This document shows, piece after piece, positions 22,260 through 32,690 of a stretch of 64,000 nucleotides of DNA. Below the pieces are notes generated by a model that searched no databases, was not told the origin of the DNA, and saw only the letters and a program-made list of their open reading frames with translations. The stretch covers positions 496,001-560,000 of the forward strand of contig NC_013222.1 in NCBI RefSeq assembly GCF_000024125.1, read 5' to 3'. Within the stretch, counting starts at the first letter, position 1; each line of letters starts with the position of its first letter. Both the position numbers and the translations under genes were made by a program. Source of the DNA: Robiginitalea biformata HTCC2501 (GTDB lineage Bacteria; Bacteroidota; Bacteroidia; Flavobacteriales; Flavobacteriaceae).

Positions 22260-23609
22260 TCAGAGCTGCTTCCCGCTGATTTTGTTGTGCAGGTGGACGG
22301 CCGCCCCGTCCGAGAGGCTGGCCACATAGGAACAGGCCTGCAGCAGCACGTCGTAAACGGAGGTTGCCCCGGGCATGCGGGTGGTTTCCGGCAGCAGCTT
22401 CAGGATGAGCCCGTCGTAGGCGGATAATTCGCCTTCGAGTTGGCAGACCAGGGCTCCGGTCACTACTTCCAGGATGTCTGAGAGGATCGCATACCCGGCC
22501 ACTTCCTTTTCCACCACCTCGGGCGACTGGTAGATGCGTTCCACGCTGATATTGAGGATGTCCGCGATCTGCGCCTTGTATCGGCTCCGATCCAGGAGGG
22601 CTACCGGGAATTCCCCGCTGAGGATCTCGGGCTCGTTTTCCATAAATACCCGGACGGCATCCCGCACCAGGGAATTGATTGCGATGGCCCGGAGGTAGCC
22701 CAACCGATCCTGCATGGCGGGGATGGCGCGGTACTTCTCCGTGTTGATGCCGTCGCTCACCAGCTTGATCAGGTATTCCAGGGCAAAGTCTTCCGGGATC
22801 AGCCCCAGGTTGATCCCATCCTCAAAGTCGATGATTGTGTAGCAGATATCGTCGGCGGCTTCCACCAGGTAGGTGAGCGGGTGCCGGCAATAGAAGCGGT
22901 CGGCCCCGGAGCCCAGCGTTTTCAGGCCGAGTTCCTCCGCCACCTCCCGGAAGCTGTCGGTGTCCGACTGGAAATACCCGAATTTTTTGGCGGCAATATG
23001 GGGGGCGGGTTTCCTGGGCAGGGATCCCTTGGGGTATTTCATAAACGCCCCCAGGGTGGCGTGGCTCAGCCGCAGGCCGCCGGGAATACCCTCCCGGGAA
23101 GCCGTGAGCAGGCGGAAGCCGTGGGCGTTGCCCTCAAAACGCACCAAATCCTCGAATTGATCTTCCGAAAGGGCATCCTGGTAGCGGCGTCCCGGGCCCC
23201 GGCTGAAAAAAGCGCCGATCGCCTTCTCGCCGCTGTGGCCAAAGGGTGGGTTCCCGATATCGTGTGCCAGGGCGGCGGCGGCCACAATGGCACCAAAATC
23301 GTTGAAACGGTACCCATGGACTTCGGACAGGTAGGGATGGGTCTTCAGGACCTCTGCCCCTGCCAGGCGACCCAGGCTGCGGCCCACCACGGAAACCTCC
23401 AGGCTGTGGGTCAGCCGGGTGTGCACAAAATCCGTCTTGGAGAGGGGGATCACCTGGGTTTTGTCCTGCAGGCTCCGGAAATACGGGGAGAATATTATAC
23501 GGTCGTAATCCACCTCAAATCCCAGGCGGGTCTCATCCTGTTCCTTCCGGAGACGTTTGTGCGTATCCCCGTGCCGTTTCAGCGACAACAGCCGCTCCCA
23601 TTGCATCAT
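22260..23609 (-). CDS. dgt: Deoxyguanosinetriphosphate triphosphohydrolase (dGTPase, HD superfamily)
   Basis: 449 residues from ATG 23609 (MMQWERLLSL; a second ATG follows at once). The HD metal site reads HTRLTHSLEV and AHDIGNPPFGHSGEKAI, and the C-terminal anion-binding region is as in Dgt. It splits dGTP into deoxyguanosine and triphosphate, lowering the dNTP pool. The frame runs upstream to 23714 without conserved residues. It is divergent from the TonB receptor gene at 23806 and ends with zero spacing against the DUF3078 gene. Confidence 0.93.
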   Translation of the reverse strand: MMQWERLLSLKRHGDTHKRLRKEQDETRLGFEVDYDRIIFSPYFRSLQDKTQVIPLSKTDFVHTRLTHSLEVSVVGRSLGRLAGAEVLKTHPYLSEVHGYRFNDFGAIVAAAALAHDIGNPPFGHSGEKAIGAFFSRGPGRRYQDALSEDQFEDLVRFEGNAHGFRLLTASREGIPGGLRLSHATLGAFMKYPKGSLPRKPAPHIAAKKFGYFQSDTDSFREVAEELGLKTLGSGADRFYCRHPLTYLVEAADDICYTIIDFEDGINLGLIPEDFALEYLIKLVSDGINTEKYRAIPAMQDRLGYLRAIAINSLVRDAVRVFMENEPEILSGEFPVALLDRSRYKAQIADILNISVERIYQSPEVVEKEVAGYAILSDILEVVTGALVCQLEGELSAYDGLILKLLPETTRMPGATSVYDVLLQACSYVASLSDGAAVHLHNKISGKQL

Positions 23610-23677
23610 ACCAGTTCGTTGTAATTGCCGCAAGATACTACATTTTCCAGGCCCTGAGGAGAGGCTTTTCCCACCTG

Positions 23678-23757
23678 TTAACACTGGGGTAACACCGTAA
23701 CATTGCGCTAACAATAAGGCAAAGAAGGTTTAATCTCAGGCTAACCCGAACCTTACA
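23678..23757 (+). promoter_or_regulatory. Array of 11-bp-spaced NTWACA hexamers (Pho-box-like) before the TonB receptor
   Basis: Hexamers on the plus strand: TTAACA 23678, GTAACA 23689, GTAACA 23697, CTAACA 23708, TTAATC 23730, CTAACC 23741, CTTACA 23752. Starts are 11 bp apart within groups, with one 8-bp step and one missing unit at 23719. Direct 6-bp repeats every 11 bp are the operator form of PhoB/PhoP (OmpR-family) regulators. The identity of the regulator is inferred from form and from the phosphate transporter downstream. Confidence 0.6.
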
Positions 23758-23805
23758 ACACCGGGCGTTCTTTGCGCCGGTACTAAGTATAGCGAAATAA
23801 ATACA

Positions 23806-26607
23806 ATGAGAATTTTACTATTCGGGCTATTTGCCCTTTCAAGTTTTATGGTGAGTGCACAAAATACAGGAAGTATTGCCGGGGTGCTCACCGACCAGGA
23901 AATGAACGGGGAACCCCTGCCGTTTGCCAATATCCTGATCAAGGGAACCACCACGGGAACCACCTCCGACTTTGACGGCCTGTATGAGATTGACGGGTTG
24001 GATCCGGGGGATTATACTGTGGTTTTCAGCTTCCTTGGCTATGAAACGGTAGAAATCCCGGCAACGGTTGAAGCGGGGAAGGTTACTCAGATTAACGTGC
24101 CCATGTCCGCCAATGAAGGCATGGCACTGGACGAAGTGGTTGTTACCACGGTCTCCCGCAAGGACTCCGAGGTGGCTCTGCTGCTCGACCAGAAATCCGC
24201 CATCCTGATCCGGGAGAGTATCGGATCCCAGCAATTGGGGCGGATCGGCGTCTCGGACGCGGCCACCGCCACCACAAAAATCTCCGGGGTTACCGCCAGC
24301 GAGGCGTCCGGGGATATTTTTATCCGCGGCCTCGGCGACCGCTACCTCTCCACCACCCTGAACGGGCTGCCGGTCCCCTCCGACGACGTGGACCGGAAAA
24401 ATATCGACCTGGGGTTGTTCCCTACGCGCGTGATCCAAAACGTCAGCATCGGGAAAACCTATTCCGTCCAGAGTTCCGCCGACCAGGCCTCCGGGACGGT
24501 CAATATCACCTCCCGGGAACTCGTCGGGTCTAACGAGCTGACCATCGGCCTGCGGGGCGGTGCAAATACGAACGTAATCCAGGACGGGGTGTTCGACAAC
24601 TTCAAGTTGTCTCCCGCAAGCGCCAAGGCGCCCCTGGGGTATTACAGCTTCAACCGGTCCGTACAGCAGCTGATCACCCAGCAGGGATGGAATACCCGCA
24701 CGGAAGAGGCGCCCATGGACTATGTCCTGAACCTGGTGGCCGGGAAAAAATTCGGCGATCGCTTATCCGTGCTGCTCACCGGGTCCCAAAGCCGGTCCTA
24801 CGACTACGGCCAGGGGCTCTTCCGGCAATTCCGCTCCAACTTCATTGACGATACGCTGACCGACGCCACGCGGTGGCGGAAGCGGGAGGTTACTTCCGGG
24901 CTCCTGGATATGGTGTATTTCATCAACGAGAACCACAAACTCAAGTCGTCCTCCATCTTCCTGAATACCTTTACCGAAGAGATCTTTGAAGGGGGTCGCA
25001 ACGGGGAGGGCTTCATCTTCGAGGAGACCGACCCGGCCGAAGGCCTCGGACAATTTGTCCGCGACCAGAACATCAAGCAAACCCAGATCCTGATTTCCCA
25101 GTTGCTGGGGACCCATCGCCTGGGCCAGAAAAATTCCCTGCAGTGGGCCCTGGGATTCAATAATGTGAATGCGGACGAGCCGAACCGGATCCGGAACGAG
25201 GTGAACTTTGACCCGGACGGTTCCTTTGTGCAACTGGGCCGGACCGGCGGTTTCCAACAGCGGAAATCCAGCCAGGAAATACAGGACAGGGAATACAACG
25301 GCTACCTGAAAGACGTGATGGACATCATCCAGGAAGAGGACAAATCCTTCCGGATTGAGGTCGGCGTCAACTACCGGAACAAGGAGCGGGATTTTGAGTC
25401 CGTATTCGTCGGGGTGGAGGAGCAATCCGTCAATACGGTAAACCCGCCTTCCATAGACAATATCGGGGCGATTTTCCAACCCGACAACTTTACGAGCGGC
25501 CGCCTCCAGTACAACCTGCTGCAGCCCGACCTGTACAATGGGAAACTGGAATCCATGGCCGGGTTTGCCGACTTTAATGTGGGCCTGAACAAATGGAATT
25601 TCAACGCCGGGCTGCGCTTCCAACGGGACGAGATCAACGTCGGCTTTGACGTGGGGAACTTCCCGGGCCGGGTGGGCGAAACCAATAAGGAGTATTCAAA
25701 CCTTTACCCGAGCCTGAACGTGCGGTACAGCATCGACGACCGGAATGCGCTCCGCCTGGCGATGAGCCGGACGATCACACTGCCGGAATTCAAGGAAATC
25801 GCGCCGTTTGAATACGTCTCCCAGGTGGGGCAGGTAACCCGGGGGAACCCGGACCTGGAAGCCTCCCGGGACCTGAACTACGACCTGAAATGGGAGTATT
25901 TCCCCTCCGCCGGGGAACTCATCTCCCTGGCAGCCTTTTACAAGGAGATTTCGGACCCGATCAACCGGGTACAGGACCGTGGATCTGCCGGTGTGTTCTC
26001 CTATTTCAACTCCGGGGAAAAAGCTGAGGTGATCGGGATTGAGGCCGAGGCCAAGGTAGACCTGATTACCGCCCCGGAAAACGAAGAGGGCCTGCGCGAG
26101 GGCTCCGGGCTGGGCCTGGTATTCAACGCCACGCGTATGTGGCACGAGCAGGACCTGAAGGAGGTCCGGGACGAAGAGGGGAACTTTATCCGCACCTTCC
26201 GCTACAAAGGCCTGACCGAAACCGGCCTGCAGGGCGCTTCCGACTGGATATTCAACGCGAGCCTGAATTACTCCCTGGAGGGGGCCAACCCCTTTAACGC
26301 AACGCTGACGGCCAACTATGCCTCAGATAAGATCTTCTCCCTCGGGGCTCCGGAAATCCAGAGCCAGAGCGATACATTCTACAACGATGCCATCGTTGAA
26401 AAAGGCTTTGTGGTCCTCGACGCCGTCCTGATCCAGGAACTCGGGGAACACTGGCGGATCCGGCTGATGGGACGGAACCTGCTGACACCGACAATTGAAA
26501 GGACCCAGCTGGTCCGCCCTAGTACCACCAATATTGAAACGGAAGAAGTTGTCCGTAGCTATACTTCTGGAGCACAGATCAGCCTGGGTCTCAATTATAC
26601 ATTTTGA
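23806..26607 (+). CDS. TonB-dependent outer-membrane receptor, possibly phosphate-regulated
   Basis: 933 residues: signal peptide (1-18, MVSAQ), carboxypeptidase-regulatory-like domain (about 20-105), plug (about 110-230; EVVVTTVSRKDSE, IFIRGLGDRYLSTTLNGLPVPS) and a large barrel ending GAQISLGLNYTF. It uses TonB energy to import a ligand. The next gene, 50 nt on, encodes a lipoprotein, so the two make a receptor-lipoprotein pair like SusCD in plan, though the lipoprotein is not SusD-like. The upstream array of 11-bp repeats and the PiT phosphate gene downstream suggest a phosphorus-containing ligand; this is inference. Confidence 0.92.
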   Translation: MRILLFGLFALSSFMVSAQNTGSIAGVLTDQEMNGEPLPFANILIKGTTTGTTSDFDGLYEIDGLDPGDYTVVFSFLGYETVEIPATVEAGKVTQINVPMSANEGMALDEVVVTTVSRKDSEVALLLDQKSAILIRESIGSQQLGRIGVSDAATATTKISGVTASEASGDIFIRGLGDRYLSTTLNGLPVPSDDVDRKNIDLGLFPTRVIQNVSIGKTYSVQSSADQASGTVNITSRELVGSNELTIGLRGGANTNVIQDGVFDNFKLSPASAKAPLGYYSFNRSVQQLITQQGWNTRTEEAPMDYVLNLVAGKKFGDRLSVLLTGSQSRSYDYGQGLFRQFRSNFIDDTLTDATRWRKREVTSGLLDMVYFINENHKLKSSSIFLNTFTEEIFEGGRNGEGFIFEETDPAEGLGQFVRDQNIKQTQILISQLLGTHRLGQKNSLQWALGFNNVNADEPNRIRNEVNFDPDGSFVQLGRTGGFQQRKSSQEIQDREYNGYLKDVMDIIQEEDKSFRIEVGVNYRNKERDFESVFVGVEEQSVNTVNPPSIDNIGAIFQPDNFTSGRLQYNLLQPDLYNGKLESMAGFADFNVGLNKWNFNAGLRFQRDEINVGFDVGNFPGRVGETNKEYSNLYPSLNVRYSIDDRNALRLAMSRTITLPEFKEIAPFEYVSQVGQVTRGNPDLEASRDLNYDLKWEYFPSAGELISLAAFYKEISDPINRVQDRGSAGVFSYFNSGEKAEVIGIEAEAKVDLITAPENEEGLREGSGLGLVFNATRMWHEQDLKEVRDEEGNFIRTFRYKGLTETGLQGASDWIFNASLNYSLEGANPFNATLTANYASDKIFSLGAPEIQSQSDTFYNDAIVEKGFVVLDAVLIQELGEHWRIRLMGRNLLTPTIERTQLVRPSTTNIETEEVVRSYTSGAQISLGLNYTF

Positions 26608-26657
26608 CCAAAAATGACCACTAACTGAAATCGATCACTAATTAAACCCCTCTCATT

Positions 26658-28688
26658 ATGAAGACAAACATTTACAGAATTCTCACCTCAATGACCATGG
26701 TCTTCGCGCTGATGCTTGCGAGCTGCAGCAGCGACGACGGTGGTACCGATCCGCCCGTACAGGCCACCTGTTCGGACGGGATCCAGAACGGGGATGAAAC
26801 CGGCATCGACTGCGGAGGTTCCTGCACAGCTTGTGTGGTGGAAGAAGACGCAAACCTTTCCGGCAGCCAGGAAGAAGACCGCACCCTCGACCCGACGGTT
26901 GCCTATACGCTAACCGGCACCTACAGCGTGGAAAGTGGTGTCACCCTGACGATCCCTGCAGGGACCGTGATTACCTCCCAAACCGGTACCGATAAATATA
27001 TCGTGGTCCAGAAAGGCGGGCAGATCGATATCCAGGGTACTGCTGCCAACCCTGTAATCATGACCTCAACCGGCCAGAACCCGGGCGACTGGGGCGGCCT
27101 GGTGATTGCCGGAAACGCCACCACCACCGAAGGGGTGGACGCCATTGCCGAAGTAGGCGGGATCGTTTACGGGGGAACTGACGACGCGGACAGCTCCGGG
27201 TCCATCTCCTACCTGATCATCAACTACGCCGGCGCCCAGATTAACTCCGAGTCCCAGTACAACGGCCTCTCCCTGTATGCCGTCGGTTCCGGGACTTCTA
27301 TCGACAACGTCGCCATCCTCAACGGTACGGACGACGGGGTAGAGTTCTTTGGCGGTACGGTAAGCGCCTCCAATTTCTACCTGGAAAACAACGAAGACGA
27401 CGCAGTTGACTGGACAGAAGGTTGGAACGGTACGCTGACCAACACCCTGGTACTCCATACGATTGCCGGATTCTCTACAGCCGTTGAGGCCGACGGGATA
27501 AACGGTAACCCGACCCTGGCCAACTTTACCGCCGTATCCACTACTGGCGGAACGGCCCTGCAATTTAAGAAGGAGTCCGGGGCCACCATTACCGGCCTTT
27601 CCCTGACAGGATACGAAGTTTCCGTTGACATGCGGGACGGCGGGCCGCTGGCCAATGTCCAGATCGACGGCGCAGCTGCGGATCCGGCCGAGACCTACCT
27701 GGCCGACCCGACGGTGGAAGCCACAGCCTTTGCCTGGGTGGATACGGATGTATCTGTTGAGACGCAGGACCTTGAAGGTTCCATGACTACGGACATGACC
27801 CTGGATGCCAGCGTCATCTACCGCCTCCGCGGCAGTTTCAGCGTGGATGCCGGCACCCTTACCATCCCTGCCGGCACGCGCATCATTGCCGACGCGGAAC
27901 AGGGAGCGGCTACTGAAACGTACATCGTGGTTAAGAAAGGTGCCATGATCGACATCCAGGGCACTGCCGAAGCCCCTGTGGTAATGACCTCTTCCAGCCA
28001 GCAGCCCGGAGACTGGGGCGGCCTGGTAATCCTGGGGGATGCCACCACGTCTGAAGGCGTGGATGCCATTGCCGAAGTAGGCGGGTTTGTTTACGGCGGA
28101 ACTAACGATACGGATAACTCCGGCTCCATCGAATACCTCGTAATCAACTACGCCGGGGCCCAGATCAATTCCGAGTCCCAGTACAATGGCCTTTCCCTGT
28201 ACGCCGTTGGTTCCGGGACCACCATCAACAACGTCGCCATCCTGAATGGTACGGACGACGGGGTTGAATTCTTTGGCGGTACGGTCAGCGCTTCGAATTT
28301 TTACCTGGCCAACAACGAAGACGACGCGGTGGACTGGACAGAAGGCTGGAACGGCACACTCACCAACACCCTGGTTGTACACGACATCGAAGGATTCTCT
28401 ACTGCGGTAGAGGCCGATGGTGTGGATGCGGGGGTTGCGGTTCCGACCCTGGAGAATTTTACGGCTGTTTCCTCCACCGGCGGCACGGCCCTGCAGTTCA
28501 AGAAAACCACCGGCGCCATTATCACCAATATCCTGCTGGACGGGTACACCGTAAATGTGGATATGCGTGACAGCGGCCCGGTAGGGAATATCGAAGTAGA
28601 CGGTACGGCCATGACCACCGTAGACGACGACGTCTTTGGCGGAACCGGAGTGGATACCTCTGTATTCGCCTGGTTTACCGGAGAATAA
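26658..28688 (+). CDS. Lipoprotein with two tandem ~308-residue repeats, partner of TonB receptor
   Basis: 676 residues. Lipoprotein signal with lipobox LASC (Cys23), then an acidic stretch and a cysteine patch (C38, C52, C56, C59). Two homologous halves follow (about 65-355 and 360-676), each rich in Thr, Gly, Asp and Asn and predicted to be a right-handed beta-helix (GTVITSQTG, GGQIDIQGTA, GDWGGLVIAG, ALQFKKESGA). The DNA copies are offset by 924 nt and share runs up to 17 nt. It is exposed at the cell surface or periplasm and co-transcribed with the receptor; function is unknown. A terminator follows. Confidence 0.85.
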   Translation: MKTNIYRILTSMTMVFALMLASCSSDDGGTDPPVQATCSDGIQNGDETGIDCGGSCTACVVEEDANLSGSQEEDRTLDPTVAYTLTGTYSVESGVTLTIPAGTVITSQTGTDKYIVVQKGGQIDIQGTAANPVIMTSTGQNPGDWGGLVIAGNATTTEGVDAIAEVGGIVYGGTDDADSSGSISYLIINYAGAQINSESQYNGLSLYAVGSGTSIDNVAILNGTDDGVEFFGGTVSASNFYLENNEDDAVDWTEGWNGTLTNTLVLHTIAGFSTAVEADGINGNPTLANFTAVSTTGGTALQFKKESGATITGLSLTGYEVSVDMRDGGPLANVQIDGAAADPAETYLADPTVEATAFAWVDTDVSVETQDLEGSMTTDMTLDASVIYRLRGSFSVDAGTLTIPAGTRIIADAEQGAATETYIVVKKGAMIDIQGTAEAPVVMTSSSQQPGDWGGLVILGDATTSEGVDAIAEVGGFVYGGTNDTDNSGSIEYLVINYAGAQINSESQYNGLSLYAVGSGTTINNVAILNGTDDGVEFFGGTVSASNFYLANNEDDAVDWTEGWNGTLTNTLVVHDIEGFSTAVEADGVDAGVAVPTLENFTAVSSTGGTALQFKKTTGAIITNILLDGYTVNVDMRDSGPVGNIEVDGTAMTTVDDDVFGGTGVDTSVFAWFTGE

Positions 28689-28726
28689 TTAGCTGAAATA
28701 CCCCTTTACACTTGTTCTCAAAGAAG

Positions 28727-28753
28727 GCCCCGCCGATTTCGGCGGGGCTTTTT
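28727..28753 (+). terminator. Rho-independent terminator after receptor-lipoprotein operon
   Basis: GCCCCGCCG (28727-28735) pairs with CGGCGGGGC (28740-28748) over a 4-nt loop, then five T residues. Confidence 0.93.
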
Positions 28754-28889
28754 ATTTGATGCATGCCAGGGCTCTATTACGACACCCGCCAACCTGAATA
28801 CCAGGAATAACACGGAATTGAAACAGTACTTCAGCCTGTAATGCAAATCCCCGGAATTCTCCGTAATATTGGGGCGCGGGAGACTTTTC

Positions 28890-28922
28890 ATAACCTTATT
28901 TTAACGTTACTCCCCATTAATA
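28890..28922 (+). promoter_or_regulatory. Short NTWACA direct-repeat cluster before the phosphate transporter
   Basis: ATAACC (28890) and TTAACG (28901) are 11 bp apart; GTTACT (28906) and TTAATA (28917) are a second, weaker 11-bp pair. A near -7 element TTTATTTG lies at 28937-28944, ahead of the ATG at 28952. The form resembles the longer arrays at 23678 and 31719, but with fewer and less exact units. Confidence 0.4.
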
Positions 28923-28951
28923 AGTTGATTTTTGTGTTTATTTGAAGCACT

Positions 28952-31210
28952 ATGGGGGACGACCTCTATCTCTACATGATCATTGCCCTGGCTATCCTGG
29001 CCATCTCCGACCTGGTGGTGGGGGTCAGCAACGATGCAGTGAACTTTCTCAATTCCGCCCTGGGGTCCAAGGCTATTTCCTTCCGTACCATTATGATCGT
29101 TGCGAGTATCGGGATTGCCTTTGGGGCCATGTCCTCGAGCGGGATGATGGAAGTAGCCCGGAAGGGAATTTTTGTGCCCGGGGAATTTATGTTTTCGGAA
29201 ATCATGATCATCTTCATGGCTGTTATGATTACCGATGTCCTGCTGCTGGACTTTTTCAACACCCTGGGGATGCCCACATCCACGACAGTTTCCATCGTTT
29301 TTGAGCTACTGGGTGCGGCCGTTATCACAAGCCTGATCAAAATGTCCGCCGCCGACGAAAGTTTCCTGAACCTGGGGAACTACATCAACAACGACAAGGC
29401 CATCGAGATAATCCTCGGTATTGTCCTGTCGGTATTGATTGCCTTTACCATCGGCGCGCTGATACAATTCCTCTCGCGATTATTCCTCACCTTCGAGTTC
29501 CAGAAAAAGGCCACCTGGAAAGCTTCTGTATTCGGCGGGCTGGCCATTGCGGGGATTGTATACTTTATCCTTATCAAGGGACTGAGCAGCACAAACCTTT
29601 TCAATGGCCTGGTGATAGATTTCGTGGAACAGAACACCTTGCTCTTCCTGGTTGGCAATGCAATCGTCTGGTCGCTGGTATGCGGCCTGTTGCAAAGCCT
29701 GGCAAAACTGAATATCTACCAGATCATCATCGTTTTCGGGACCTTTGCCCTGGCCATGGCCTTTGCCGGAAACGACCTGGTTAATTTTATCGGGGTCCCT
29801 ATCGCCGCCTACCAATCCTTCCTGGACTGGAGCGCTTCCGGGGTAGGGGCGGACAACTATGCCATGGACGGACTGGCTGCCGCTGTGCAGACGCCAACCC
29901 TGCTGTTGTTGCTGTCGGGCGTGGTGATGATCCTGACGCTCTGGTTTTCCACCAAAGCCCTTTTTGTTACGGAAACCGAGATTAACCTGGCGCGGGAAGG
30001 CGAAGGGGAAGAGCGGTTCCGCCCGAATTATCTGTCCCGGCAAATCGTCCGGCTCACTGTTGCGGCCGTTGAAACCATTTCCTCCCTGCCTCCAGAAAAG
30101 GTTCAGGCAGCTATCTCCCGAAGGTTTGAACGGGCCCCCAGCTATACGAGCCGGGTCCAGGCCAAGGAGAAGCCGGCCTTCGATATGGTCCGGGCATCGG
30201 TAAACCTGATGGTGGCCAGCGTCCTGATTTCCATTGCCACTTCTATGAAACTGCCGCTCTCCACAACTTATGTCACCTTTATGGTGGCAATGGGTACTTC
30301 CCTGGCCGACCGGGCCTGGGGCTCGGAAAGTGCGGTATATCGGGTTGCGGGCGTCCTTAACGTTATCGGGGGATGGTTCCTCACGGCCATTACGGCCTTT
30401 ACAGGAGCCGGGATCGTCGCCTACCTGATCTACCTGGGTGGGGCCTGGGCTATCGGATTGTTATTTGTACTGGCCCTGGTAATCCTGATCCGGAATTACT
30501 TAAACCATAAAAAACGCAGCCGGGAGCTCAAGGAGGAATACGTATTGAGGCGAACGGAAAGCAGCACCATCAGCGAAGTCATCGAAGACAGCGCGGACAA
30601 TGTGGCAGTAGCCATCAAACGGGTAAACAAAATCTACACCTCCAGCATGGAGGGACTCGTAAAGCACGACCTGAACTCCCTGAAAAAAAGCACGAAACAC
30701 ATCCGGAAACTGGATACAGAAGTCGAAAACCTCCGGGAAAGCATCTTCTACTTTATCAAAAACCTGGATGAGGGAAGCGTCAAGGCATCCAACCTGTACC
30801 TGCAGATTTTGCGGTACCTTCAGGATATGACCCAGTCCCTGGAACACATCTCCAAGAGTTCCTATAAACACGTCAACAACAACCACAAGAAATTGCGCTT
30901 CCAGCAATTGCGGGACCTGAAGGAAACAGATTCCTTTGTCTCCGGTTTTTTTAAGGAGGTCCAGGAAATATTTTCGGAAGGGAATTTTGAGGAACTGACC
31001 CAGACGCTGATCCGGCAGGAGGAACTCTTGCAACGGGTAGATGCAAAAATCCGCAAGCAAATTGAACGGACCCGGGGGGATGAATCGAGCCCTAAAAACA
31101 CAGCCCTCTATTTCAACCTGCTTCAGGAGACACGAGACCTTCTCGAAGCTACCTTCAAGCTCATGGAGATCTACGACGTTAACATCAACAAAATCGAATT
31201 GGAATTATAA
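28952..31210 (+). CDS. PiT-family inorganic phosphate transporter with C-terminal PhoU-like domain
   Basis: 752 residues. The membrane part (about 1-515) has both PiT signature repeats, GVSNDAVNFLNSALGSKAIS near 25 and FAGNDLVNFIGVP near 270, and takes up phosphate with H+ or Na+ (or as metal-phosphate). The last ~220 residues are soluble, helical and charged (VAVAIKRVNKIY, LDTEVENLRESIFYFIKNL), like PhoU proteins that restrain phosphate uptake. In many bacteria the PhoU-like partner is a separate gene, so transporter and governor are fused here. Preceded by an 11-bp repeat pair. Confidence 0.92.
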   Translation: MGDDLYLYMIIALAILAISDLVVGVSNDAVNFLNSALGSKAISFRTIMIVASIGIAFGAMSSSGMMEVARKGIFVPGEFMFSEIMIIFMAVMITDVLLLDFFNTLGMPTSTTVSIVFELLGAAVITSLIKMSAADESFLNLGNYINNDKAIEIILGIVLSVLIAFTIGALIQFLSRLFLTFEFQKKATWKASVFGGLAIAGIVYFILIKGLSSTNLFNGLVIDFVEQNTLLFLVGNAIVWSLVCGLLQSLAKLNIYQIIIVFGTFALAMAFAGNDLVNFIGVPIAAYQSFLDWSASGVGADNYAMDGLAAAVQTPTLLLLLSGVVMILTLWFSTKALFVTETEINLAREGEGEERFRPNYLSRQIVRLTVAAVETISSLPPEKVQAAISRRFERAPSYTSRVQAKEKPAFDMVRASVNLMVASVLISIATSMKLPLSTTYVTFMVAMGTSLADRAWGSESAVYRVAGVLNVIGGWFLTAITAFTGAGIVAYLIYLGGAWAIGLLFVLALVILIRNYLNHKKRSRELKEEYVLRRTESSTISEVIEDSADNVAVAIKRVNKIYTSSMEGLVKHDLNSLKKSTKHIRKLDTEVENLRESIFYFIKNLDEGSVKASNLYLQILRYLQDMTQSLEHISKSSYKHVNNNHKKLRFQQLRDLKETDSFVSGFFKEVQEIFSEGNFEELTQTLIRQEELLQRVDAKIRKQIERTRGDESSPKNTALYFNLLQETRDLLEATFKLMEIYDVNINKIELEL

Positions 31211-31280
31211 TCGATCTGGAATGCCTTCATTATGCAACCGGTCCGGCCATTGGTGTCCCTGGTTTCCCGGTTGCACCGGT

Positions 31281-31310
31281 CAAAAAAAAGCCCGCTGCAT
31301 GGCGGGCTTT
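31281..31310 (-). terminator. Terminator for the MORN-repeat gene (minus strand)
   Basis: AAAGCCCGC (31287-31295) pairs with GCGGGCTTT (31302-31310) around a 6-nt loop. The run of A residues from 31282 gives an eight-T tail on the minus strand; the plus-strand transcript of the phosphate transporter may also stop here. Confidence 0.85.
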
Positions 31311-31339
31311 ATCGTTGACGGAATCGTTTCGGAAGCGAG

Positions 31340-31693
31340 TTATCTGTTCACCGCTACCCGGGTGCCGTTGTTCCAATTGACTACGTTCACGATAGCATTA
31401 TCGGAGTAGTCTACTTCACGCAGGTTATCTTCTTCCCAGAAAAACCATTTTCCGGTTTTGTTACCTGCATCGTATTGTCCGATGGCGACCTTTTTCCCGG
31501 AAGTGTCAAACATGATCCATTCCCCGTGCAATTGGCCGTCCCGAAAAAACCCGGTCTGGGCAACCGCACCGTTTTCATGATAATATGTAGCCTTCACCAG
31601 GTCATCAGTCCGCTCAAACTGCGGCTCAGGTTGTTGCGCCTCGATTGAAATCACACCACAAATCAACATCAAAAGTGTCATAATTCTATACAT
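31340..31693 (-). CDS. Secreted MORN-repeat (YwqK-like) small protein
   Basis: 117 residues: signal peptide (1-19, ending SIEAQ) and three or so MORN_2-type repeats (YYHENGAVAQTGFFRDGQ, GEWIMFDTSGKKVAIGQY, GKWFFWEEDNLREVDY). The family forms flat beta-hairpin sheets; its role in Bacteroidota is not known despite an antitoxin label in some databases. The gene has a -7 element TATATTTG but no -33 TTTG, and the largest 11-bp repeat array of the window lies directly upstream, implying that it needs an activator. Confidence 0.85.
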   Translation of the reverse strand: MYRIMTLLMLICGVISIEAQQPEPQFERTDDLVKATYYHENGAVAQTGFFRDGQLHGEWIMFDTSGKKVAIGQYDAGNKTGKWFFWEEDNLREVDYSDNAIVNVVNWNNGTRVAVNR

Positions 31694-31718
31694 AATACTG
31701 TGGTTTTATGTGTTGTAC

Positions 31719-31798
31719 TTTACATTAACGTAACAAATATACAATTATTTTACGTCGATATTACTTTCAGCTAACTTTTTATTTACATTAAGTTTACA
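31719..31798. promoter_or_regulatory. Eight-unit array of NTWACA hexamers with 11-bp period
   Basis: Plus-strand hexamers start at 31719 TTTACA, 31730 GTAACA, 31738 TATACA, 31749 TTTACG, 31760 ATTACT, 31771 CTAACT, 31782 TTTACA and 31793 TTTACA. All steps are 11 bp except one of 8 bp, the same 11-8-11 start as the array at 23678. The last two units sit in an exact 10-bp repeat (TTTACATTAA). It lies between divergent genes and covers the minus-strand promoter; form fits a PhoB/PhoP-type operator. Confidence 0.65.
31734..31741 (-). promoter_or_regulatory. -7 promoter element of the MORN-repeat gene
   Basis: On the minus strand TATATTTG fits TAnnTTTG, 41 nt from the start codon. No TTG stands 17-19 nt upstream; five 11-bp repeat units occupy that place instead. 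Confidence 0.6.
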
Positions 31799-31830
31799 TT
31801 AAAGATATTGGTGCCTGTTTATCAGCATAT

Positions 31831-31887
31831 TAAACACCGCCCACTAAGCGTAGTGGTTTACCAAAAACCTGGGAAAAAGGGTGTTTA
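31831..31887 (+). ncRNA. Candidate structured RNA leader
   Basis: TAAACACC (31831-31838) pairs with GGTGTTTA (31880-31887). Inside are a perfect hairpin CCACTA-agcg-TAGTGG (31841-31856) and a second possible stem GGTTT/AAACC (31855-31869). It lies 72 nt before the start codon of the DUF6503 gene. The closed multi-stem form resembles a cis-regulatory RNA, but I cannot assign it to a known class. Confidence 0.3.
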
Positions 31888-31958
31888 TCGACTCAATTTA
31901 ATGCCAGTTGTCCCCAACGATTCGCAAAACACTATTTTTAAGAACTAATACCGATCCT

Positions 31959-32690
31959 ATGGGATACCTGCAATTCTTTTGTCTTTACGTCCTGGTTCTC
32001 CTCTCCCCGCCTGCACTTGAATCCCAGCAGATAACCGCCCCCGAACTGCTGGAAAAAAGCATCGCCTACCACGACCCGCAGGGTCAATGGGGCCGGCTCC
32101 GGGCGGATTTTGAAATCCTGGCCGAACGGCCGGGGGGATCAGACCGCCTCAGCACCATACACATGGATCAGGCTGCTTCCCTTTTTCGTGTCCGCGTGGA
32201 ACAGGAAGGGGTAACTAAGACCTATCAGGTGCACGGGGGCCACTGCCGCCTGTGGTACCAGGGCGAGGCCGGGTTCCCGGAAGAAACAGCCGCATCGGAA
32301 AATCTTACTTGCGAACGGGCCTCCCTGCTCCGCGACTACTACAGCTACCTCTACGGCCTGCCGATGAAACTCCGGGATCCGGGTACCGTGATGGAGCCGG
32401 AGGTGAACCGGGCCGATTTCCACGGGAAGGAATACCTCGTGATCGAGGTGCGGTACGAGCCGGGTACCGGATCCGATACCTGGCGCTTCTATTTCGACCC
32501 GGTAACCTCTGCCCTGGGGGCCTACCAGTTCTTCCATGACGTGGCCGCAAATGACGGGGAGTACATCCTATTGGAAGGGGAAGCCGCAATCGGGACCATG
32601 CGGGTACCCGAATTCCGCAAATGGTACCGCAACGATACGGGGGAATACCTGGGTTCCGATCGGTTGCGGCCTGCAGGTAGCCGCGAGTAG
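31959..32690 (+). CDS. DUF6503-like exported protein
   Basis: 243 residues from the ATG at 31959 (MGYLQFFCLYVLVLLSP), chosen because it begins a signal peptide ending near LESQQ; 17 in-frame codons upstream look untranslated. The mature part starts APELLEKSIAYHDPQGQW and contains a repeated-strand fold with a paired cysteine (GGHCRLWYQ, ENLTCERA). The beginning HDPQGQW and the end WRFYFDP are characteristic of the Bacteroidota DUF6503 family, function unknown. It faces the MORN gene across the 11-bp repeat array and has a possibly structured leader. Confidence 0.75.
   Translation: MGYLQFFCLYVLVLLSPPALESQQITAPELLEKSIAYHDPQGQWGRLRADFEILAERPGGSDRLSTIHMDQAASLFRVRVEQEGVTKTYQVHGGHCRLWYQGEAGFPEETAASENLTCERASLLRDYYSYLYGLPMKLRDPGTVMEPEVNRADFHGKEYLVIEVRYEPGTGSDTWRFYFDPVTSALGAYQFFHDVAANDGEYILLEGEAAIGTMRVPEFRKWYRNDTGEYLGSDRLRPAGSRE

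Follow-up and report, generated by a model that had tools for sequence, protein, structure and literature searches.

The 64,000-nucleotide stretch of Robiginitalea biformata HTCC2501 analysed here (contig NC_013222.1, positions 496,001 to 560,000, forward strand; called the window and numbered from its own first letter) contains a block of five genes encoding a TonB-dependent receptor, a lipoprotein, a PiT-PhoU phosphate transporter, a MORN_2-like exported protein and a DUF6503 protein, which is quite probably a phosphate-starvation (Pho) block belonging to a known type, working as a whole by the mechanism proposed below. A preliminary description of this DNA had placed the five genes together with 11-bp repeats in one block, and this arrangement has been confirmed. 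The receptor gene (23806..26607, plus strand) encodes 933 amino acids with CarbopepD_reg_2, Plug and barrel domains, and is followed by the lipoprotein gene (26658..28688, plus strand), whose product of 676 amino acids is ElpS/FII-like and carries an invariant lipobox cysteine, Cys23, and two beta-helix domains. The transporter gene (28952..31210, plus strand) encodes 752 amino acids with a C-terminal PhoU-fold domain at about residues 535-752, the MORN gene (31340..31693, minus strand) 117 amino acids, and the DUF6503 gene spans 31908..32690 on the plus strand with a probable start at ATG 31959. Open reading frames (ORFs) have been called mechanically, and starts and small ORFs are therefore uncertain. 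Operator-like boxes of 22 bp, all on the plus strand, lie at three places in the block, namely two with TAACA every 11 bp upstream of the receptor gene (23677-23698 and 23696-23717), one upstream of the transporter gene (28889..28910, score 13.3), and two upstream of the MORN gene and reversed relative to it (31718-31739, score 11.2, and 31781-31802, score 9.2; together 31718..31802).

The presence of a dedicated phosphate transporter, as had been proposed, is borne out by a PHO4 domain match of 94.6 bits (cut-off 33.7), and its C-terminal domain is PhoU-like by fold comparison; by sequence, Pfam and hhalign against five PhoU proteins found no PhoU in this part. Family searches of the genome have found one PHO4 gene, that of the window (controls positive 10/14), no member of the PstS family (controls positive 13/14) and none of the Na_Pi_cotrans family (controls positive 5/14). 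The PiT protein is thus the sole recognisable phosphate carrier in the genome among the three families searched, and the block may for this reason be the main phosphate route. Single-protein searches of the genome for PstS and for one porin were empty as well and lacked a positive control. The lipoprotein has been predicted to fold into two pectin-lyase-like beta-helix domains; no relative of solved structure was found by sequence up to E 1, and a protein of Robiginitalea myxolifaciens shares 80% identity with it. Its sole Pfam match, HP_OMP (24 bits, cut-off 21), has been taken as spurious, no single stretch passing, and PF28492, listed for it in the protein database, is missing from the Pfam output obtained here. 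Membership of the pair in the SusC/SusD family has been rejected, as no SusD family is among the lipoprotein's Pfam matches at E 0.001 and the receptor, with 68.6 bits against the SusC/RagA model TIGR04056, is far under the cut-off of 368.25.

In order that the window should not be judged by itself, the 22-bp box matrix has been trained on the receptor promoters of 39 relatives, with the window excluded; a seeded run and the 8 top-scoring runs among 60 random ones converged on one core, and the matrix of the best random run was adopted. The resulting consensus is TAACATT-N4-TAAC, with units repeating at 11/22/33/44 bp. This relatives-trained matrix finds its top places in the 64 kb at 23696, 23677, 28889 and 31718, and scores of at least 11 occur 5 times (4 places) where 0.27 are expected from 60 dinucleotide shuffles. 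The score of the box at 28889 has been equalled in 2 of 1000 shuffles of its intergenic stretch, and that of the third window site, which lies within a stretch of 32% GC, in 19 of 1000 local shuffles. The exact pattern TAACA-N6-TAACA occurs twice in the window, adjacently and upstream of the receptor gene. The periodicity does not depend on the matrix, as counts of identical 5-mers at spacings of 6 to 45, compared with 50 letter shuffles, peak at 11, 33 and 44 bp (z 15, 18 and 17) in the receptor promoters of the 39 relatives and the window, the next-best spacing, 19 bp, reaching a z of only 4.2; the receptor promoters of a second set of relatives peak at 11, 22, 33 and 44 bp. Sites of the PhoB/OmpR type are typically spaced by 11 bp. 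The next-ranked box-like site of the window (7640, minus strand, score 10.3) lies outside the block.

The surroundings of the pair have been followed in two sets of relatives, a first of 40 loci taken from the top-ranking lipoprotein matches in 107 genomes, and a second comprising the best 80 of at least 575 confirmed loci, from which L134 has been left out of the promoter, count and tree sets, leaving 79, because its genome is that of a training locus; other second-set loci may share genera with training loci, and contig ends that truncate loci depress the neighbourhood counts. Lipoprotein matches at E ≤0.001 occur in 107 of the 120 family genomes, some of them partial. The receptor adjoins the lipoprotein in 39/40 loci of the first set and lies at most two ORFs away in 76/80 of the second, and the pair shares its locus with a gene for PiT, Porin_O_P, a Pst permease or a PhoB-type regulator in 35/40 and 57/79, the regulator being present in 11/40 and 32/79 and Porin_O_P in 17/40 and 14/79. 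MORN homologues accompany the pair in 25/40 and 32/79 loci and DUF6503 in 12 of 119. In five loci (L069, L098, L123, L127, L196) the pair is flanked by phoU and pst genes; Pfam bears out PhoU and PstS in L196, and a permease has been recognised in L098.

Boxes, counted in the relatives at scores of at least 10 and on the same strand unless stated, have been found in front of the same kinds of genes, although the promoters of PiT, porin, MORN and further genes stood outside the training. They precede the PiT gene in 20/22 and 24/27 cases (first and second set), Porin_O_P in 17/17 and 13/14, a small CarbopepD protein in 8/10 and 6/7, PstS in 1/2 and 2/4, and the receptor gene in 60/82 of the second set, paralogues counted. 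The counts for further genes are dGTPase 3/24 and 3/28, unclustered ORFs of the first set 4/93, other ORFs of the second set 10/534 on the same and 6/534 on the opposite strand, dxs 1/14 in the second set, and none in the first set for dxs, LysE, methyltransferase, PhoR and DUF6503 genes. The phoB gene itself has no own-strand box (0/11 and 0/33), and those lying between it and the receptor gene point towards the receptor. The matrix-free 11-bp peak is likewise present in the second set for receptor, PiT, porin and MORN promoters and absent for dxs and other ORFs. The proposed phosphate linkage of the block has thereby gained strong in silico support, and we consider it likely. That the pair is instead a glycan or carbon system merely adjoining Pho genes would agree with the many Bacteroidota TonB receptors that serve glycans, with the frequency of beta-helix folds among glycan enzymes, and with the 22/79 second-set loci that lack any counted Pho gene, partly owing to contig ends; it is made very improbable by the boxes common to pair, PiT and porin, by the recurrent association with PiT, Pst, Porin_O_P and phoB, and by the published induction upon phosphate depletion in Flavobacterium (PMC8115612).

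The MORN gene stands apart from the others by the orientation of its boxes. A reversed box lies within 300 bp upstream of it in 56/57 loci of the relatives, and 50-90 bp before the start in 44/57, which contrasts with the boxes before receptor, PiT and porin genes. Reversed boxes persist in 7 loci in which the next upstream ORF is co-directional, two of which (L166, L175) rely on a doubtful ORF of 70-81 amino acids. By its boxes the MORN gene is tied to the block, while DUF6503, a neighbour whose regulon membership is unsupported, has been rejected as a member because its promoters in the relatives carry no boxes (0/6 and 0/6, 0/12 in all).

A novel kind of phosphate-linked outer-membrane system, as the preliminary description had envisaged, has found no support: the pair is of an already known kind, since it has been published in F. 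johnsoniae, in the same locus order and induced by low phosphate, as PUSIV (PMC8115612), and, as a proteobacterial counterpart, in Caulobacter as CC0171 with ElpS (PMC2996285). In Table 1 of the Flavobacterium report, Fjoh_0541 is a glycosyltransferase (pf04101), Fjoh_0542 an OprP (pf07396) that is not induced, and Fjoh_0545 and Fjoh_0546 are a TonB-dependent transporter and lipoprotein FII (IPR011050) that form PUSIV; phosphate depletion raises the latter two, for which the column of transcriptome fold changes gives 8.02 and 9.91 (PMC8115612). Fjoh_0546 is named there among the loci tightly repressed under nitrogen and iron limitation (PMC8115612), and expression tied to iron or carbon, which had been put forward as a refutation of the phosphate link, is accordingly disfavoured. 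The gene order of Fjoh_0541-0546 recurs in Flavobacterium loci such as L163 and L195, with GT28, a porin of 431-442 amino acids (Pfam-checked in L163), phoR, phoB, receptor and lipoprotein; the loci of F. hibernum and F. pectinovorum show this order, with a porin-sized gene that Pfam confirmed in F. hibernum, and other Flavobacterium loci look similar. The window shares with the PUSIV/PhoBR cluster a receptor with Plug, CarbopepD_reg_2 and OMP_b-brl_3 domains followed by a pectin-lyase-like lipoprotein, whereas the Flavobacterium pair adjoins phoBR with GT28 and Porin_O_P nearby (PMC8115612) and that of the window lies beside a dGTPase gene, with PiT, MORN and DUF6503; its lipoprotein has 676 amino acids and two beta-helix domains, compared with 393-394 amino acids in F. 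hibernum and F. pectinovorum. ElpS of Caulobacter crescentus has been described as a low-phosphate surface lipoprotein beside the receptor CC0171 and type II secretion genes (PMC2996285), an arrangement resembled by the adjoining lipoprotein and receptor of the window, in which, however, the receptor comes first and no type II secretion genes have been recognised in the block. The SusCD/PusCD systems also combine a TonB receptor with a surface lipoprotein, and the Pus versions respond to low phosphate (PMC8115612), whereas the window lipoprotein is a predicted beta-helix without a SusD match. Lipoprotein relatives have been found in 21 records of a plasmid and 3 of a phage collection. Of the plasmid regions, two were examined: in Indioceanicola the order is lipoprotein, receptor, type II secretion genes, as at ElpS, and in Pseudoalteromonas a large lipoprotein relative and a receptor lie next to ExbB, ExbD and TonB genes.

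Gene content, boxes, synteny and the predicted folds of two parts come from the present analysis, and induction by low phosphate has been published for the corresponding Flavobacterium pair and for ElpS. One may postulate that, at low phosphate, the PhoB-type regulator encoded at 1116655-1117335 of this genome binds the tandem TAACATT-N4-TAAC boxes and switches on the receptor-lipoprotein operon and PiT-PhoU. The lipoprotein, anchored by Cys23 on the cell surface, would bind either a ligand that contains phosphorus, such as a phosphorylated polymer or an organophosphate, or a phosphatase; the TonB receptor would move the phosphorus compound through the outer membrane, and PiT would bring phosphate into the cytoplasm, with PhoU as a putative brake; the MORN protein, its operator reversed, may be oppositely controlled. 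We infer direct binding by PhoB, surface location, ligand and transport direction; a role of PhoB as the regulator acting on the boxes is likely, and capture of a ligand by the lipoprotein for the receptor is plausible, the chances being about even. More tentatively, with the balance leaning against it, the pair could represent a second class of outer-membrane uptake system for phosphorus in Bacteroidota and Proteobacteria, formed by a TonB receptor and a lipoprotein of one to three beta-helix domains unrelated to SusD, which in Flavobacteriia would be placed under an uncharted PhoB operator (TAACATT-N4-TAAC, at 11/22/33/44 bp) that switches genes on when facing forward and, in its reversed placement at MORN, represses or works through some other geometry.

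The lipoprotein may alternatively be a surface enzyme or the partner of a phosphatase instead of a receptor lid, so that organophosphate would be cleaved outside, phosphate would enter via porins, and the receptor would import another substrate. Its beta-helix domains are similar to polysaccharide lyases, epimerases and polygalacturonases, Porin_O_P accompanies the pair at the frequencies given above, and overexpression of ElpS raised alkaline phosphatase activity in the supernatant (PMC2996285). Yet the pair has been kept together almost throughout both sets at several addresses, purified ElpS had no phosphatase activity of its own (PMC2996285), and the single porin query gave no match in this genome, its positive control lacking, which renders this explanation rather unlikely.

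The identity of the regulator also has to be considered. No Pho operator of Flavobacteriia has been found in the literature except the PhoP motif of Riemerella, a relative within the same order, a weak negative as subscription papers lay mostly outside the search. The authors of this motif, whose core is TTTAACA, likened it to that of ArcA and linked it to the tolerance of oxygen (PMC9603813), and the PhoB-type protein has 18 matches in its own genome, several over most of its length; the 11-bp repeats might accordingly be sites of another OmpR-family regulator. We regard this as improbable, as the box targets are phosphate genes, a PhoB-type gene stands beside 43 of 118 receptors, and the best curated match of the F. 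hibernum regulator is PhoB (217 bits, below the cut-off of 296). Caulobacter PhoB has been reported to control various TonB receptors (PMC11208175).

Several observations weigh against the Pho block as proposed. The box pattern shows no genome-wide enrichment (33 sites versus 36, and 90 versus 143, for reversed controls), and 22/82 second-set receptor promoters score below 10, including 7 Bacteroidales/gut loci (L180, L182, L188, L189, L190, L193, L197) whose neighbourhoods gave no match to the Pho reference proteins; within Flavobacterium itself, 7/12 second-set receptor promoters reach 10 and 5/12 stay below. The lipoprotein gene has an upstream box of its own in only 12/40 and 19/80 relatives, and simple activation ill fits the reversed MORN boxes. 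In Caulobacter, cc0171 is constitutive, its deletion left ElpS production running, and the loss of ElpS left alkaline phosphatase activity unchanged; the purified protein showed none (PMC2996285). Moreover, the relation of the window pair to Fjoh_0545/0546 and ElpS/CC0171 has been drawn by family, synteny and locus-tag order, not by direct alignment.

Flavobacteriia rank among the major degraders of polymers in the sea, where bacteria are often limited by phosphate. A shared operator recognisable next to established phosphate genes would aid the charting of the phosphate regulon across many genomes. This operator, its reversed use at MORN, and the pairing of a TonB receptor with a tandem beta-helix lipoprotein unlike SusD appear to be the less explored features of the block, the first two being the most test-worthy. 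Within the low-phosphate response published for Flavobacterium, the receptor-lipoprotein pair is among the proteins that are strongly induced and little understood (PMC8115612).

The dGTPase-like gene of the window (22260..23609, minus strand) is divergent from the receptor gene, and the two share the box-bearing intergenic stretch, as in many relatives (gene and stretch together occupy 22260-23805 of the window). On a quick tree of 118 receptors (L061-L100 and L118-L197, long branches flagged), 53 lie at most three ORFs from a dGTPase gene, 43 beside a PhoB-type regulator, 21 elsewhere and 1 beside Pst. The dGTPase and phoB addresses interleave, with at least 19 changes of the dGTPase label forced by well-supported branches, which may reflect either repeated relocation of the pair or old twin copies that have undergone exchange. 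The R. biformata genome has a PhoB-type regulator at 1116655-1117335, 81% identical to the pair-adjacent regulator of the relative L063, and the locus keeps a LuxE-like gene, two sorting-domain genes, phoB, phoR, methyltransferase and LysE genes, the receptor-lipoprotein pair being absent. One of the 9 exact TAACA-N6-TAACA sites of the genome lies there between the phoB orthologue and the sorting-domain genes; this box (score 9.4) faces the latter, away from phoB. A CarbopepD-domain protein of about 133 amino acids adjoins the pair in relatives such as L076, L070 and L125, with boxes up to 25.6; none has been seen in the window block.

Seventeen of the 33 genome-wide pattern sites have been inspected by ORF. 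Pfam was applied to 7 proteins encoded close by, one of them at an earlier locus; these comprise one phosphoesterase, two DUF4331 proteins, one PhoX-like protein, two TonB receptors and one integrase. The PhoX-like lipoprotein gene (L230 1565-3224; genome 2637064-2638723, minus strand) is preceded at a distance of about 110 bp by a box that scores 13.0 in forward orientation, and its PF05787 match of 21.2 bits is below the cut-off of 24. At L113 6042-6080 (genome 236041-236079), boxes of 16.9 and 13.5 lie beside a calcineurin-like phosphoesterase gene and are reversed relative to it. Downstream of a box scoring 13.1, two consecutive DUF4331 genes have been found (L110 16543-18100), the second of which encodes a lipoprotein whose N-terminal stretch is 38% like query residues 4-112 of the window lipoprotein. 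Two more TonB receptor genes, at L212 (1514 onward) and L223 (up to 1483), start near one-mismatch matches to the pattern.

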